From assembly GCA_037951105.1 (NCBI GenBank), contig JBAMJV010003377.1:111212-175211 (forward strand): a DNA stretch of 64,000 nucleotides. The letters run 5' to 3'. The position numbers and the translations under genes were made by a program. Position 1 is the first letter of the stretch. Each line of letters starts with the position of its first letter. Positions 17,501 to 33,680 of the stretch are shown here, piece after piece. The notes beneath the pieces were generated by a model. That model was given only the letters and a program-made list of their open reading frames with translations. It was not told the origin of the DNA and made no database searches. This DNA is from Echinarachnius parma. Lineage: Eukaryota; Echinodermata; Echinoidea; Clypeasteroida; Echinarachniidae.

Positions 17501-19362
17501 GGACTACAAAACCACAAATATGTGGGCCTTAGGCACTGATGGGTTAACAAGATCTTTCAAATTCTAGTGGTTCATGTGCTAATTTTGAGCATTCCAACAC
17601 ATAAGAAGATGAAGCCTTACAAAGCAATCATCAGAGCCTCCTTCTCCGCCTGCTTTATTGCTTCTGCCTCTGTCATCCCTCCGGCTCCGTTTCCATCCTT
17701 GCGCTCTTTGCTGAACCACTCCAAGTCCTTCCCCTTCTGCCATCGACCAACAGGGGCCAACAGCGAATGACCTGCAATCAACAAGAAAAGAAATCAGAAA
17801 TAGGTACAAAAATCATGCAAATTAACAAGAAGAGAAAGTAAAAATAGTGACGTAAATTGAAGAAGAACTTTGTTGCAAAATGAGTTCTTTACTGAAGCCA
17901 TTGCTGCAAATCCTTCCCCTGCTGCCGTTAAACGATAGCAGCCTTGACTGGCAATCAACTAACTCTACAGAACGCCAGTGCTTGCGCTGGCGTTCTACGA
18001 CCACCTAATGAAGCCCCCAAACTTGCACTTTTGTGTGCACGATATTTTGATGAAATATATTATATGATACGATACTTACATGTACCATCTATCTCTGCAC
18101 AAATATGTGATGTAACTTGGCGCTAGATAAAAATGATGATTTTTCGCTCGATTCCTCCATGTAATGAAAATACGTGATTTCTGCACTTCTCTCCGTGTCG
18201 TAGCAGTGTAGCGCGACTTTTGAACGAAAGATGATTGCGCTTTGGTCTCCATTCAAGTCGCCCGCCGATTCCAATTAAACGACAGATCTGACGCGTTAGT
18301 CCGTACTACCACTATAAAATACGGCGACTTGAATGGAGACCAAAGCATGATCATCTTTCGTTCAAAAGTCGCGCTACGACACGGAGAGAAGTCGATATGG
18401 TGCAGAATTCAAAAATCACGTATTTTCATTAGGAATCGAGCGAAAAATCATCATTTTTATCTAGCGCCAAGTTACATCACATATTATGCAGAGATAGATG
18501 GTAAGTATCGTATCATATATGATATATTTCATCAACATATCGTGCACACAAAAGTGCAAGTTTGGGGGCTTCATTAGGTGGTCGTAGAATGCCTGCTTGC
18601 TGGCGTTCTGTAGAGTTAGCAATCAACAAGAAAATACATTAACAATTAGGGAAATAAAACCACTGTGGATTGCATAATTGAAAGTGCAATATACCATTTT
18701 CGTTAATTTGAGACAATTGCAATTGAACCTGTTGAAAAGAGAAAACTTTTAAATTGATAGGAAATTATGATAATTGACATATATTATTTATATATATTTC
18801 ACTACAATGATCATGATCAGGATGATGATTCAGTTCACACTCAGTTCTTCTAAAATATCATTTGGCAGGTGACAAGTTAAATTGAAAAGCTTAATTTCGT
18901 ATTTGAATTTGTAAATATATAAATTGCAATATTCCAATAATCAGGCTTTATTGCCTTTATTTAAATTGTTTGCAAAGCCAAAGATTGCAAAGCCAAAGAC
19001 AAAAATTAAGACGTCGCTAGTCACTCATTGCATTTGGGAGTATTTTTGGAGCAAATGTGAACAATTGGAATGTTCAAAATTAAAATGTCGAACAAATTAT
19101 TTAAAGAACAATATTGAATTTAATCTTAAAAAGTCAATGACGTTTTGCTTTTAGTTTTACTTCAAGTTCTACCAGTTTACGTTTTATGACCAAAAAGACA
19201 CGATATTGTTGGGTGCATGAAAATGAGTATGTGGGACTATTAAAGTTTATCCGATCAGTCTCTCTTACCAAGATAGCACTCTCTGTCTTTATCACTCTTC
19301 ACGCTATCCCATGTAAACTGATCCTGACCTCCTCTGTTTCCTCCTCTTGGTACGTAATACAT
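10921..19362 (-). CDS. MMTAG2: MMTAG2 (C1orf35)-like protein, complete six-exon gene
   Basis: Exons in transcript order: 19362-19269, 17771-17621, 15835-15709, 13212-13148, 12495-12349, 11593-10921. All introns are GT..AG, and the joined frame gives 418 codons plus TAA. Residues 1-82 match the conserved N-terminus of the multiple myeloma tumour-associated protein 2 family: [20 protein letters not shown], then [21 protein letters not shown], then an acidic helix ending EALMIAL. Residues 83-194 are proline-rich and then Lys-rich. Residues 195-418 are a low-complexity tail rich in Arg, Asp, Glu, Ser and Lys, resembling the RS/RD tails of nuclear RNA-associated proteins. Human MMTAG2 has about 263 residues, so this tail is much longer. 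Function is poorly known; nuclear, RNA-processing context is inference from composition. An in-frame ATG at 19455 exists upstream, but family members start near the chosen Met. The gene diverges from PSMD11 across 277 bp. Confidence 0.9.
11961..12115. mobile_element. Short GGGGCGGATCTAGC element in MMTAG2 intron 5
   Basis: Starts caggggcggatctagctttt, contains gatggcgtttttctatgcac and gcacatcacattttcacttg (reverse of the unit in PSMD11 intron 9) between G runs. The far inverted end is missing. Confidence 0.65.
12349..12495 (-). CDS. MMTAG2: MMTAG2 exon 5
   Basis: Acceptor tcacag, donor gtatgg. Encodes two poly-Lys clusters separated by RSSDSARKT, then [14 protein letters not shown]. Highly basic followed by acidic: a probable nuclear localisation region. 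Confidence 0.85.
13148..13212 (-). CDS. MMTAG2: MMTAG2 exon 4
   Basis: Short 65-bp exon between acceptor tttag and donor gtgagt, encoding [20 protein letters not shown]. Frame is phase-compatible with exons 3 and 5. Confidence 0.85.
13237..13395 (+). mobile_element. SINE/LINE 3'-end fragment
   Basis: Ends gtaaagcgctatataaataa followed by TTATTAT-type sequence, the form seen in L2-like 3' tails. A similar gtaaagtgcttaggg..tatataaat(ATT)n end is at 32938-33016. Confidence 0.5.
13409..14988. mobile_element. CAGTCAAACC MITE split by a pearl-like element, in MMTAG2 intron 3
   Basis: The left end 13409-13449 and the right end from about 14842 to 14988 (GACAGGTTTGACTG) are one MITE with TA flanks, opened in its gggaaacaaaa..agtggcc middle by the element at 13450-14841. 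Confidence 0.8.
13450..14841 (-). mobile_element. Pearl-like (Helentron-type, non-autonomous) element with five 151-bp core repeats
   Basis: On the - strand it begins tatgcctccgccaacgaag, then a (GTCC/ACGG)n microsatellite (14731-14795), five regular 151-bp core units (period from gaacgagg at 13958, 14109, 14260, 14411, 14562, 14713), and a 3' end with the perfect hairpin GATTGCGCGCAATC followed by CATCTAG. Pearl/Nadir-type elements of marine invertebrates share this architecture (stem-loop end, tetranucleotide microsatellite, about 160-bp core repeats); assignment to that class is from family knowledge. Each core carries TGACCTTGACCTTTGACC. Confidence 0.78.
15022..15199. mobile_element. MITE related to 7505-7665, in MMTAG2 intron 3
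   Basis: Starts cagcagaacttcatttttaa, ends ttcaacgaggttccactg, with TA flanks. Confidence 0.68.
15709..15835 (-). CDS. MMTAG2: MMTAG2 exon 3
   Basis: Acceptor cttgcag, donor gtaata. Completes Leu, then [16 protein letters not shown], a Ser-Pro stretch ([12 protein letters not shown]) and a poly-Lys end. The Leu-Gly-x-Lys start aligns with the LGYK of vertebrate homologues, which fixes the frame. Confidence 0.88.
15878..16199. mobile_element. TTAA-MITE family 2 copy in MMTAG2 intron 2
   Basis: Starts AGGGATCCAGTAACAATGTC, ends GTCAACAAAGTTAATAGATC plus CC(T), with TTAA-type flanks. It begins 42 bp beyond the exon 3 acceptor boundary, inside the region that normally carries the branch point. 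Confidence 0.75.
17621..17771 (-). CDS. MMTAG2: MMTAG2 exon 2
   Basis: Acceptor tgcag before 17771; donor gtaagg after 17621. Encodes [19 protein letters not shown] and the acidic/amphipathic segment ending EALMIAL. This is the best conserved part of the family. A decayed copy of this exon lies at about 17880-17960 on the same strand. Confidence 0.9.
17880..17960 (-). pseudogene. Decayed tandem copy of MMTAG2 exon 2
   Basis: Compared on the + strand, aaatccttcccctgctgcc here aligns with aagtccttccccttctgcc in exon 2, and the block ends in the same gcaatcaac that follows the exon 2 acceptor. It lies 5' of the functional exon in the transcript. Several indels destroy the frame. A long foldback element is inserted exactly at its gcaatcaac. 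Confidence 0.72.
17960..18618. mobile_element. Long foldback element (659 bp) with 9-bp target duplication, in MMTAG2 intron 1
   Basis: Two arms of roughly 300 bp are inverted copies. Termini are TAACTCTACAGAACGCCAG ... CTGGCGTTCTGTAGAGTTA, and GCAATCAAC is present on both sides (17951-17959, 18619-18627). A 9-bp duplication with very long inverted repeats is typical of Mutator-like foldback elements. No coding region. Confidence 0.85.
19269..19362 (-). CDS. MMTAG2: MMTAG2 exon 1
   Basis: Starts at the ATG at 19362-19360 ([16 protein letters not shown]...) and ends after the first base of the Gly codon in YLG, with donor gtaaga. It carries the Gly/Arg-rich start and the [19 protein letters not shown] block characteristic of the family. 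Confidence 0.9.
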
Positions 19363-19639
19363 TTTGAAAGTCAAAGACACTCTCAAAATGTAAACGGAAG
19401 TATGTGAAGTCCACCATAAACAAACGCAGTAAATGACAGAAATCGTATGCGACATCGATTAATGTAGGAGCAGCGAACTAGCATAAGAACCACGTACTAA
19501 TGAACAAAAGATCATTGAGTGGCGCACGTCGCGTATATTTGATAAGGTGTCAGCGAAATCACATGTTTTACTCCAACTTGCAAAGTCACTCGAGACGAGT
19601 CGTTCGGTGTTTTGTCAAACAGACATTTACAAATTCAAA
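19363..19639. promoter_or_regulatory. Shared intergenic region, probable bidirectional promoter of MMTAG2 and PSMD11
   Basis: Only 277 bp separate the two start codons of divergently read housekeeping genes. There is no well-placed TATA box for either gene. A CGGAAGT motif at about 19395-19401 matches the ETS-factor core often found in bidirectional promoters. It lies close to the MMTAG2 start, so it may be in the 5' UTR. Transcription starts cannot be seen. Confidence 0.6.
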
Positions 19640-33279: not shown

Positions 33280-33680
33280 CAAGCCTGCACATTTCTGAAA
33301 ACAAAGAAACTGGAACTCTCATCTTTCATGGACATTGCTTGATAATTTTTCCTTCTTTTGAAAAATCCCATTGATTTTTTTTATGGACAAAGTTGTTGAG
33401 TCCTTGTTTCAGAAAACCAAGAAGCTTTATTGAAAAACCTGCACATTTCTGAAAACAAAGAAACTGGAACTCTCATCTTTCATGGACATTGCTTGATAAT
33501 TTTTCCTTCTTTTGAAAAATCCCAGTGATTTTTTTATGGAAAAAGCTGTCTCCTGAAAACCAAGAAGCGCTTTTTAAAAACGTGCACATTTCTGAACACA
33601 AAGAAACTGGAACTCTCATCTTTCATGGACATTGCTAGATAATTTTTCTTTCTTTTGAAAATCCCTGCTACATTTTGTTA
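33229..33680 (+). repeat. PSMD11: Tandem triplication (about 152 bp) of the PSMD11 C-terminal codons and proximal 3' UTR
   Basis: Three units start at about 33231, 33383 and 33535. Unit 1 contains the true stop. Unit 2 keeps an intact reading of the last 16 residues ([16 protein letters not shown] and TGA at 33383-33433). Unit 3 is decayed (33535-33577). The UTR halves of units 1 and 2 are almost identical over about 105 bp, including the ctggaactctcatctttcat block, while the coding parts differ at six positions, four of them silent. Confidence 0.9.

Follow-up and report, generated by a model that had tools for sequence, protein, structure and literature searches.

We analysed a window of 64,000 nucleotides (nt) from the echinoderm Echinarachnius parma (contig JBAMJV010003377.1, in a genome assembly of 1.2 Gb and 14,790 contigs), in which several exons are accompanied by decayed, partial copies of themselves, here called echoes. 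The genome gave a strong match to bindin (E 1.2e-33), a marker of echinoderms, and none to GFP, the latter a weak negative because the controls of that search gave no match either. Gene search in the window extended to 38 kb. The window contains PSMD11, which lies on the plus strand at 19640-33279 and has 11 exons; the joined exons encode a 418-residue Rpn6 protein that matched human PSMD11/RPN6 over residues 4-417 (E 9.7e-194). A minus-strand gene at ~10.9-19.4 kb, with six exons placed by eye, is one that we take to be MMTAG2, following a preliminary description of this DNA; a Pfam scan of two pieces of this gene, including a fragment of exon 2, gave no match confirming the name. Also present is the plus-strand end of an ARF gene, which matches the Arf family of Pfam with E 1.5e-13.

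Candidate echoes were scored by local alignment, and the scores were compared with those of dinucleotide shuffles (500 for PSMD11 and 1000 for MMTAG2 exon 2). PSMD11 exons 3, 5, 9 and 11 each had two copies that scored above all 500 shuffles (Table 1). For exon 9 echo B, which is interrupted, the left piece scored 40.5 alone and 46.5 with the flanks joined, and neither score was reached by any of the 500 shuffles; the right piece alone was reached by 19 of 500, and lay above all of them when joined to the left piece. The echo of MMTAG2 exon 2 (17881-17960, resuming at 18620) scored 36 with its flanks joined, a value reached by none of the 1000 shuffles, whose maximum was 18. For the remaining seven of the 11 PSMD11 exons and the other five of the six MMTAG2 exons, no copy within 1 kb exceeded the 60 shuffles made for each. 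The exon 11 unit consists of the end of the coding sequence (CDS) and 3' untranslated region (UTR), and 51 and 29 nt of the coding end could be aligned in its two further copies. Within 33229-33680, copies 1 and 2 of this unit differ at 3 of 102 sites in the 3'UTR part and at 6 of 51 in the coding part, and the sole stretch of the 3'UTR unit that was folded in a search for an RNA element (33283-33382) folded no better than shuffles (z 0.96).

Table 1. Exons, their copies and associated insertions in and next to the window; scores are local alignment scores.
Feature	Position	Strand	Remarks
PSMD11 exon 3, intact	23449..23573	+	Downstream end of three-unit array
Exon 3 echo 1	23031..23122	+	3' splice site kept, first 70/125 nt, 1 indel; score 59.5, 0/500 shuffles
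Exon 3 echo 2	23142..23305	+	Intron part, kept 3' splice site, first 70/125 nt; score 89, 0/500 shuffles; left limit fixed by the stretch given to the aligner
PSMD11 exon 5, intact	24773..24884	+	Downstream end of array
Exon 5 echo 1	24387..24513	+	Intron part, acceptor AG lost, first 58/112 nt; score 80.5, 0/500 shuffles
Exon 5 echo 2	24531..24669	+	Intron part, acceptor AG kept, first 74/112 nt; score 65, 0/500 shuffles
PSMD11 exon 9, intact	29170..29331	+	Upstream end of array
Exon 9 echo A	29360..29422	+	Last 35/162 nt, kept donor GTAAGT; score 25.5, 0/500 shuffles
Exon 9 echo B, left piece	29423..29522	+	Interior and 3' part, 100/162 nt of exon; resumes at 31491 past insertion
Insertion in exon 9 echo B	29518..31489		~1.97 kb, inverted ends, two tandem arrays; limits approximate
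PSMD11 exon 11	33137..33279	+	Last 51/143 nt of CDS belong to duplicated unit
Exon 11, further copies	33383-33535, 33537-33680	+	CDS end and 3'UTR, period ~154 (Tandem Repeats Finder, TRF); scores 135, 92; 0/500 shuffles
MMTAG2 exon 2, intact	17621..17771	-	Open frame and splice sites
MMTAG2 exon 2 echo	17881..18658	-	3' splice site region, ~first 72/151 nt of exon
ARF terminal exon	1901..2058	+	Open frame, 52 codons
Upstream ARF terminal exon, tail	1..33	+	32/33 identical; 2046 bp from partner
Second ARF terminal exon, complete, open	contig C3376:111065-111223		Mostly outside the window, 2046 bp upstream

Every repeated unit in the window ends inside an exon, and contains a partial exon with at most one splice site, never a whole exon. 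Relative to the intact exon and in the sense of the gene, echoes carrying 5' parts (PSMD11 exons 3 and 5, MMTAG2 exon 2) are upstream and those carrying 3' parts (PSMD11 exons 9 and 11) downstream, the arrangement that head-to-tail duplication necessarily leaves when a breakpoint splits the exon. The copies are spaced by 63 to ~215 bp. The preliminary description had correctly reported decayed copies beside these five exons, and these copies withstood the comparison with shuffled controls, but it had described the units as centred on an exon with its splice site and as 130-185 bp long. Each unit instead holds part of the exon only (for example 70 of 125 nt of PSMD11 exon 3 and ~72 of 151 nt of MMTAG2 exon 2), and the range of spacings is wider than the sizes given. 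The splice site, or exon-intron boundary, does lie within the unit for PSMD11 exons 3, 5 and 9 and for MMTAG2 exon 2; the unit of exon 11 contains none.

Two of the echoes are split by insertions. A foldback element at ~17961-18619, with long inverted repeats and a 9-bp direct repeat at its ends, divides the MMTAG2 exon 2 echo, and PSMD11 exon 9 echo B is interrupted by a longer insertion, inside which a second element is apparently nested. These echoes therefore predate the insertions.

Exons outside the window were sampled as profile matches to Myosin_head (82 rows) and Kinesin (134 rows), and were picked regardless of whether they had copies. For myosin, 70 of the 82 rows had at least 300 bp on each side; removal of ten allelic or duplicate rows and of one echo left 59, and removal of six more allelic exons, together with the two contigs concerned, left 53. 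For kinesin, ten non-allelic gene regions provided 40 rows, of which 37 were retained after three echoes had been removed; a later check for alleles revealed no pair among these. Tiles of 190 bp from the same loci served as controls, and a copy was sought within 1 kb, using the same score thresholds as in the window (22, and a stricter 28). False positives amounted to 3 of 300 shuffled tiles and none of 288 shuffled exon runs.

A copy was found for 34 of the 53 myosin exons, compared with 170 of 593 tiles (p 6e-7). Because alternative exons are a known feature of myosins, a second family mattered; in kinesin, 23 of 37 exons and 42 of 168 tiles had a copy (p 2.6e-5). When the families were pooled at score 22, copies accompanied 57 of 90 exons and 212 of 761 tiles, with a hazard ratio of 3.07 (bootstrap by contig 2.42-3.90), and at score 28 they accompanied 53 of 90 exons and 154 of 761 tiles, with a ratio of 3.93 (3.17-4.90). 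The ratio fell to 2 or below in 0.07% and 0.00%, respectively, of 3000 bootstraps by contig. Mean exon GC content was 0.51, and against tiles with a GC content of at least 0.42 the hazard ratio was 2.87 (2.00-4.12) at score 22 and 3.15 (2.29-4.51) at score 28. Counts that still included the six allelic exon pairs (C1237/C9272, C9008/C2768) stood at 62 of 96 exons (39 of 59 for myosin) versus 234 of 840 tiles, with a ratio of 3.2-4.2. At least one case was present on every sampled contig (27, or 25 after removal of alleles). Copies were about as frequent in tiles unlike any other fetched contig (131 of 505) as in dispersed ones (103 of 335; both counted before the last alleles were dropped). 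Exon edges thus have an excess of nearby copies in two gene families outside the window. Small tandem duplications are also frequent outside exons, in line with one of the two options that the preliminary description had considered: 17-31% of non-exon segments, depending on the stretch and the tile length, had a copy within 1 kb.

The sampled copies obey the same rule of sides as those in the window. Among 107 exon copies, 52 lie upstream and 55 downstream, and one covers the whole probe. The side predicted from the copied end was found for 104 of the 106 partial copies, and for 55 of 57 exons when judged by the best copy; one of the two exceptions had a score at the threshold. Just one copy was present for 33 of the 57 exons with copies, and copies on both sides were seen for 4 of 62 exons (a count made before the last allelic exons were dropped). 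The median spacing was nearly equal for exon copies (212 bp) and non-exon copies (209 bp), and one process therefore probably makes both. The unit is the exon edge, and a whole exon as the unit is not supported; an intact exon at the end of the array is what topology leads one to expect.

We interpret the echoes as tandem duplications in which exon edges are duplicated, with an excess that is due partly to visibility and otherwise to more frequent birth or longer persistence, and we assign this reading a probability of roughly 0.7. In each case a tandem duplication, of ~140-215 bp where the period is readable, would have had one breakpoint in the exon and a second in the intron beside it (for exon 11, in the 3'UTR). 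Since the first breakpoint lies inside the exon, the unit would include a single exon edge and no more than one splice site. The complete exon would be left at a fixed end of the array, as the last copy when a 5' part is duplicated and as the first when a 3' part is. The extra copies, never having had a second splice site, would do little harm and would probably decay neutrally into intron, and transposable elements would later have landed in two of them. The same process would operate genome-wide; its traces are found at exon edges some three to four times as often as in other sequence. About 1.4-1.5-fold of this excess could be attributed, on the basis of simulation, to selection holding one of the two copies still; what remains would mean either that duplications arise more often at exon edges or that the copies made there persist for longer.

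The excess could, in the strongest alternative, be entirely a matter of visibility and retention: duplications would be born evenly, and copies at exon edges would be seen for longer, with one partner under selection and deletions that reach into the exon purged. Non-exon duplications are indeed common, as seen in the tiles, and the differences between exons and echoes in the window number 27, 33 and 49 at the three codon positions, with third positions differing most, as expected for a constrained exon. The preliminary description had warned of such a bias, and it does explain part of the excess: when the pipeline was run on simulated data in which selection fixed the exon and units inside or across it were purged, the predicted ratio was 1.41-1.50. 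Copy loss driven by deletions, with one mobile partner instead of two, should by our reasoning give a ratio of at most 2. The ratios observed with GC-rich controls exceed both values. In addition, shielding from deletions should enrich copies in the intron beside exons, but no rise was seen there, copies being present in 31 of 168 tiles at 60-300 bp from exons, 53 of 243 at 300-700 bp, 60 of 313 at 700-1500 bp and 10 of 37 beyond 1500 bp. Taken together, the simulated ratio, the bound for deletions and the lack of a rise near exons indicate that an excess remains beyond visibility. It was already present at an identity of at least 90% (15 of 90 exons versus 41 of 761 tiles, p 0.0003), although identity classes are unequal in age: because one of its partners changes slowly, an exon pair seems younger than an equally old intron pair, and at a given identity the exon pair is the older. 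We regard visibility and retention as a doubtful explanation for the whole of the excess.

A number of observations weigh against the interpretation that we favour. In the window itself, copies within 1 kb and well above 60 shuffles were found for 5 of 18 exons (PSMD11 exons 3, 5, 9 and 11 and MMTAG2 exon 2) and for 115 of 474 non-exon tiles of 120 bp (24%), giving no excess (Fisher p 0.78). When repeat pairs in the window were merged into 28 events, 5 touched exons, compared with a mean of 4.28 under rotation, and 0.439 of rotations reached 5. The exon preference considered in the preliminary description is thus borne out in the wider sample but not in the stretch from which it was drawn. The wider sample comprises two gene families, collected by profile matches without exact exon ends, and the kinesin regions were chosen by eye for compactness. 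With GC-rich controls, the hazard ratio was 2 or below in 2.7% of bootstraps at score 22 and in 0.3% at score 28. At an identity of at least 95%, 3 of 90 exons and 22 of 761 tiles had copies, with no clear excess for exons, which speaks against more frequent birth. The nine copies in the window diverge more in their exon parts (109 of 560 sites) than in their non-coding parts (56 of 509 sites), the opposite of what anchoring by selection predicts, although local alignment trims the ends of the non-coding parts and the copies depend on one another. Finally, with one copy per exon, acceptor dinucleotides were kept in 11.0 copies versus 9.1 expected (16 exons, P 0.24) and donor dinucleotides in 12.7 versus 10.7 expected (18 exons, P 0.20), in a test that left out 45 of 117 copies lacking a confident splice site as well as the 13 copies of ARF exon 2 described below; retention that is slightly above expectation for both leaves room for weak selection on splice sites.

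Three further counts were discarded. When events lying in recognised inserts were dropped, exons accounted for 4 of 5 PSMD11 events (reached by 0.061-0.076 of rotations), but this exclusion was decided once the data were known; counting exon 9 as two events gave 5 of 6 (0.019 of rotations), a figure that we did not use. A first pass over splice sites, in which 45 of 50 copies were kept versus 35.4 expected, was no longer significant with one copy per exon and a control for local identity.

The part of the excess that visibility leaves over may tentatively be ascribed to hotspots of birth at exon edges, where a feature of DNA or chromatin that marks exons would cause duplications of 140-215 bp to start about twice as often or more. 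Candidates for such a mark are a step in base composition, a positioned nucleosome, or a structure linked to transcription or splicing. If exon edges are hotspots of this kind, most exons would eventually gain a second copy of a splice site, and alternative splice sites, and perhaps new introns, would keep arising from such copies.

The ARF gene contains copies of two kinds. Its terminal exon had been listed among the decayed echoes, and a second copy does exist upstream, but that copy is complete and open, and only 33 bp of it lie in the window. The two terminal exons differ in 12 of 52 codons, 10 of them with a changed residue, and neither has a copy within 1 kb. This pair is a whole-exon duplication, unlike the decayed partial echoes, and the two may be alternative last exons. 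ARF exon 2, in turn, has 13 partial copies upstream of the intact exon (C3376:101674-105126), with 82-97% identity and a spacing of mostly 199-211 bp. Weaker partial copies flank ARF exons 3 and 4, one on either side of each (scores 49/22 and 31.5/22, with shuffled maxima of 17 and 20); for exon 3, the fraction covered is 0.18-0.68 in the upstream copy and 0.64-0.97 in the downstream copy.

Echoes could also be functional and kept by selection, whether as mutually exclusive exons, as decoys or as splice sites for alternative use. Both ARF terminal exons have open frames. The donor of PSMD11 exon 9 echo A, if used, would extend exon 9 by 63 nt (29331-29395), adding 21 codons in frame and without a stop, and some splice dinucleotides are kept elsewhere. 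Their retention is, however, not significant relative to local identity, so that the test supports neither their maintenance nor their removal by selection. Mutually exclusive tandem exons are whole exons with both splice sites, whereas 106 of the 107 sampled copies are partial and without a second splice site; in their aligned parts, 62 carry a frameshift, 13 more a stop and 32 are open, so that 75 of 107 are shifted or stopped. A function for the echoes as a class is thus improbable, and the ARF terminal exons form an exception that may belong with mutually exclusive exons.

An assembly artefact or unmerged haplotypes could be envisaged, since the assembly is divided into many contigs and both alleles of some loci stand as separate contigs. 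Most copies, however, are 5-30% diverged from the exon, and some take in flanking intron or were later hit by insertions; the same copies were recovered on separate allelic contigs (C1854/C99, 40.0 and 40.0; C6989/C7396, 79.0 and 79.5), which makes this explanation very improbable. Insertion of exon copies into introns, whether RNA-mediated or dispersed, would fit their small size and relation to exons, but is hardly credible, as copies in the window bring adjoining intron with the splice site, and insertion would not tie the side to the copied end, as is seen in nearly all cases.

Partial copies of this type resemble the 'mirage' minisatellites of amphioxus, a cephalochordate, which two reports describe in Adh3, the globins BflGb6 and BflGb9, troponin C and PGBD5 (PMC3087553, PMC3902484). 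As set out there, a mirage unit consists of the 3' end of an intron and the 5' part of an exon, or spans the 3' boundary of an exon, and measures 150-160 bp in the globins. Many mirages, though not all, keep AG or GT; they are said to leave regular splicing undisturbed, and the mechanism is called unclear (PMC3087553, PMC3902484). Mirages are further characterised by copy numbers that differ between haplotypes or cells. The amphioxus and echinoderm copies share units that span a boundary, an intact boundary at one end of the array, the involvement of both 5' and 3' boundaries, and head-to-tail arrays of several units, represented here by ARF exon 2. Unlike the amphioxus cases, which are described there for single genes, the copies reported here come from loci sampled across a genome, are mostly few and decayed, and have a frequency measured against controls. 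A literature search, with most subscription papers outside its reach, returned mirages in this sense, among the papers examined, only from the two reports and no genome-wide count. The phenomenon is real and orderly; it is known in kind, and apparently new for this animal group and for its extent, with 57 of the 90 sampled exons affected. Intron gain by tandem genomic duplication likewise involves the duplication of gene sequence with splice signals (PMC4974935), but no new intron was seen in a reading frame here, and the copies in the window lie in existing introns or the 3'UTR. Neighbouring exon copies are also the feature shared with mutually exclusive tandem exons (PMC5740500).

It has been proposed that new introns and alternative exons can originate from splice sites that were duplicated. 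With a partial self-copy beside nearly two thirds of the sampled exons, the birth, decay and occasional use of such copies would become directly measurable. The echinoderm cases would show that mirages are not peculiar to the amphioxus lineage. The rule of sides provides a simple means of finding such copies elsewhere, and keeps annotators from calling them exons.

Other features were observed in the window. An open frame of 315 codons in PSMD11 intron 1 (19730-20677) has a C-x2-C...H...C pattern and looks like the terminal part of the reverse transcriptase from an element of the long interspersed nuclear element (LINE) type; Pfam gave nothing above its cut-off for this frame. In PSMD11 intron 7, two sequences similar to tRNA-Ala (AGC), at 27482-27554 and 28488-28562, flank a 91-bp minisatellite, and are possibly tRNA-derived short interspersed nuclear elements (SINEs). 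Arrays of one type of 15-bp repeat, each open in several frames, lie in opposite orientation at 46004-46512 and 47837-48205.

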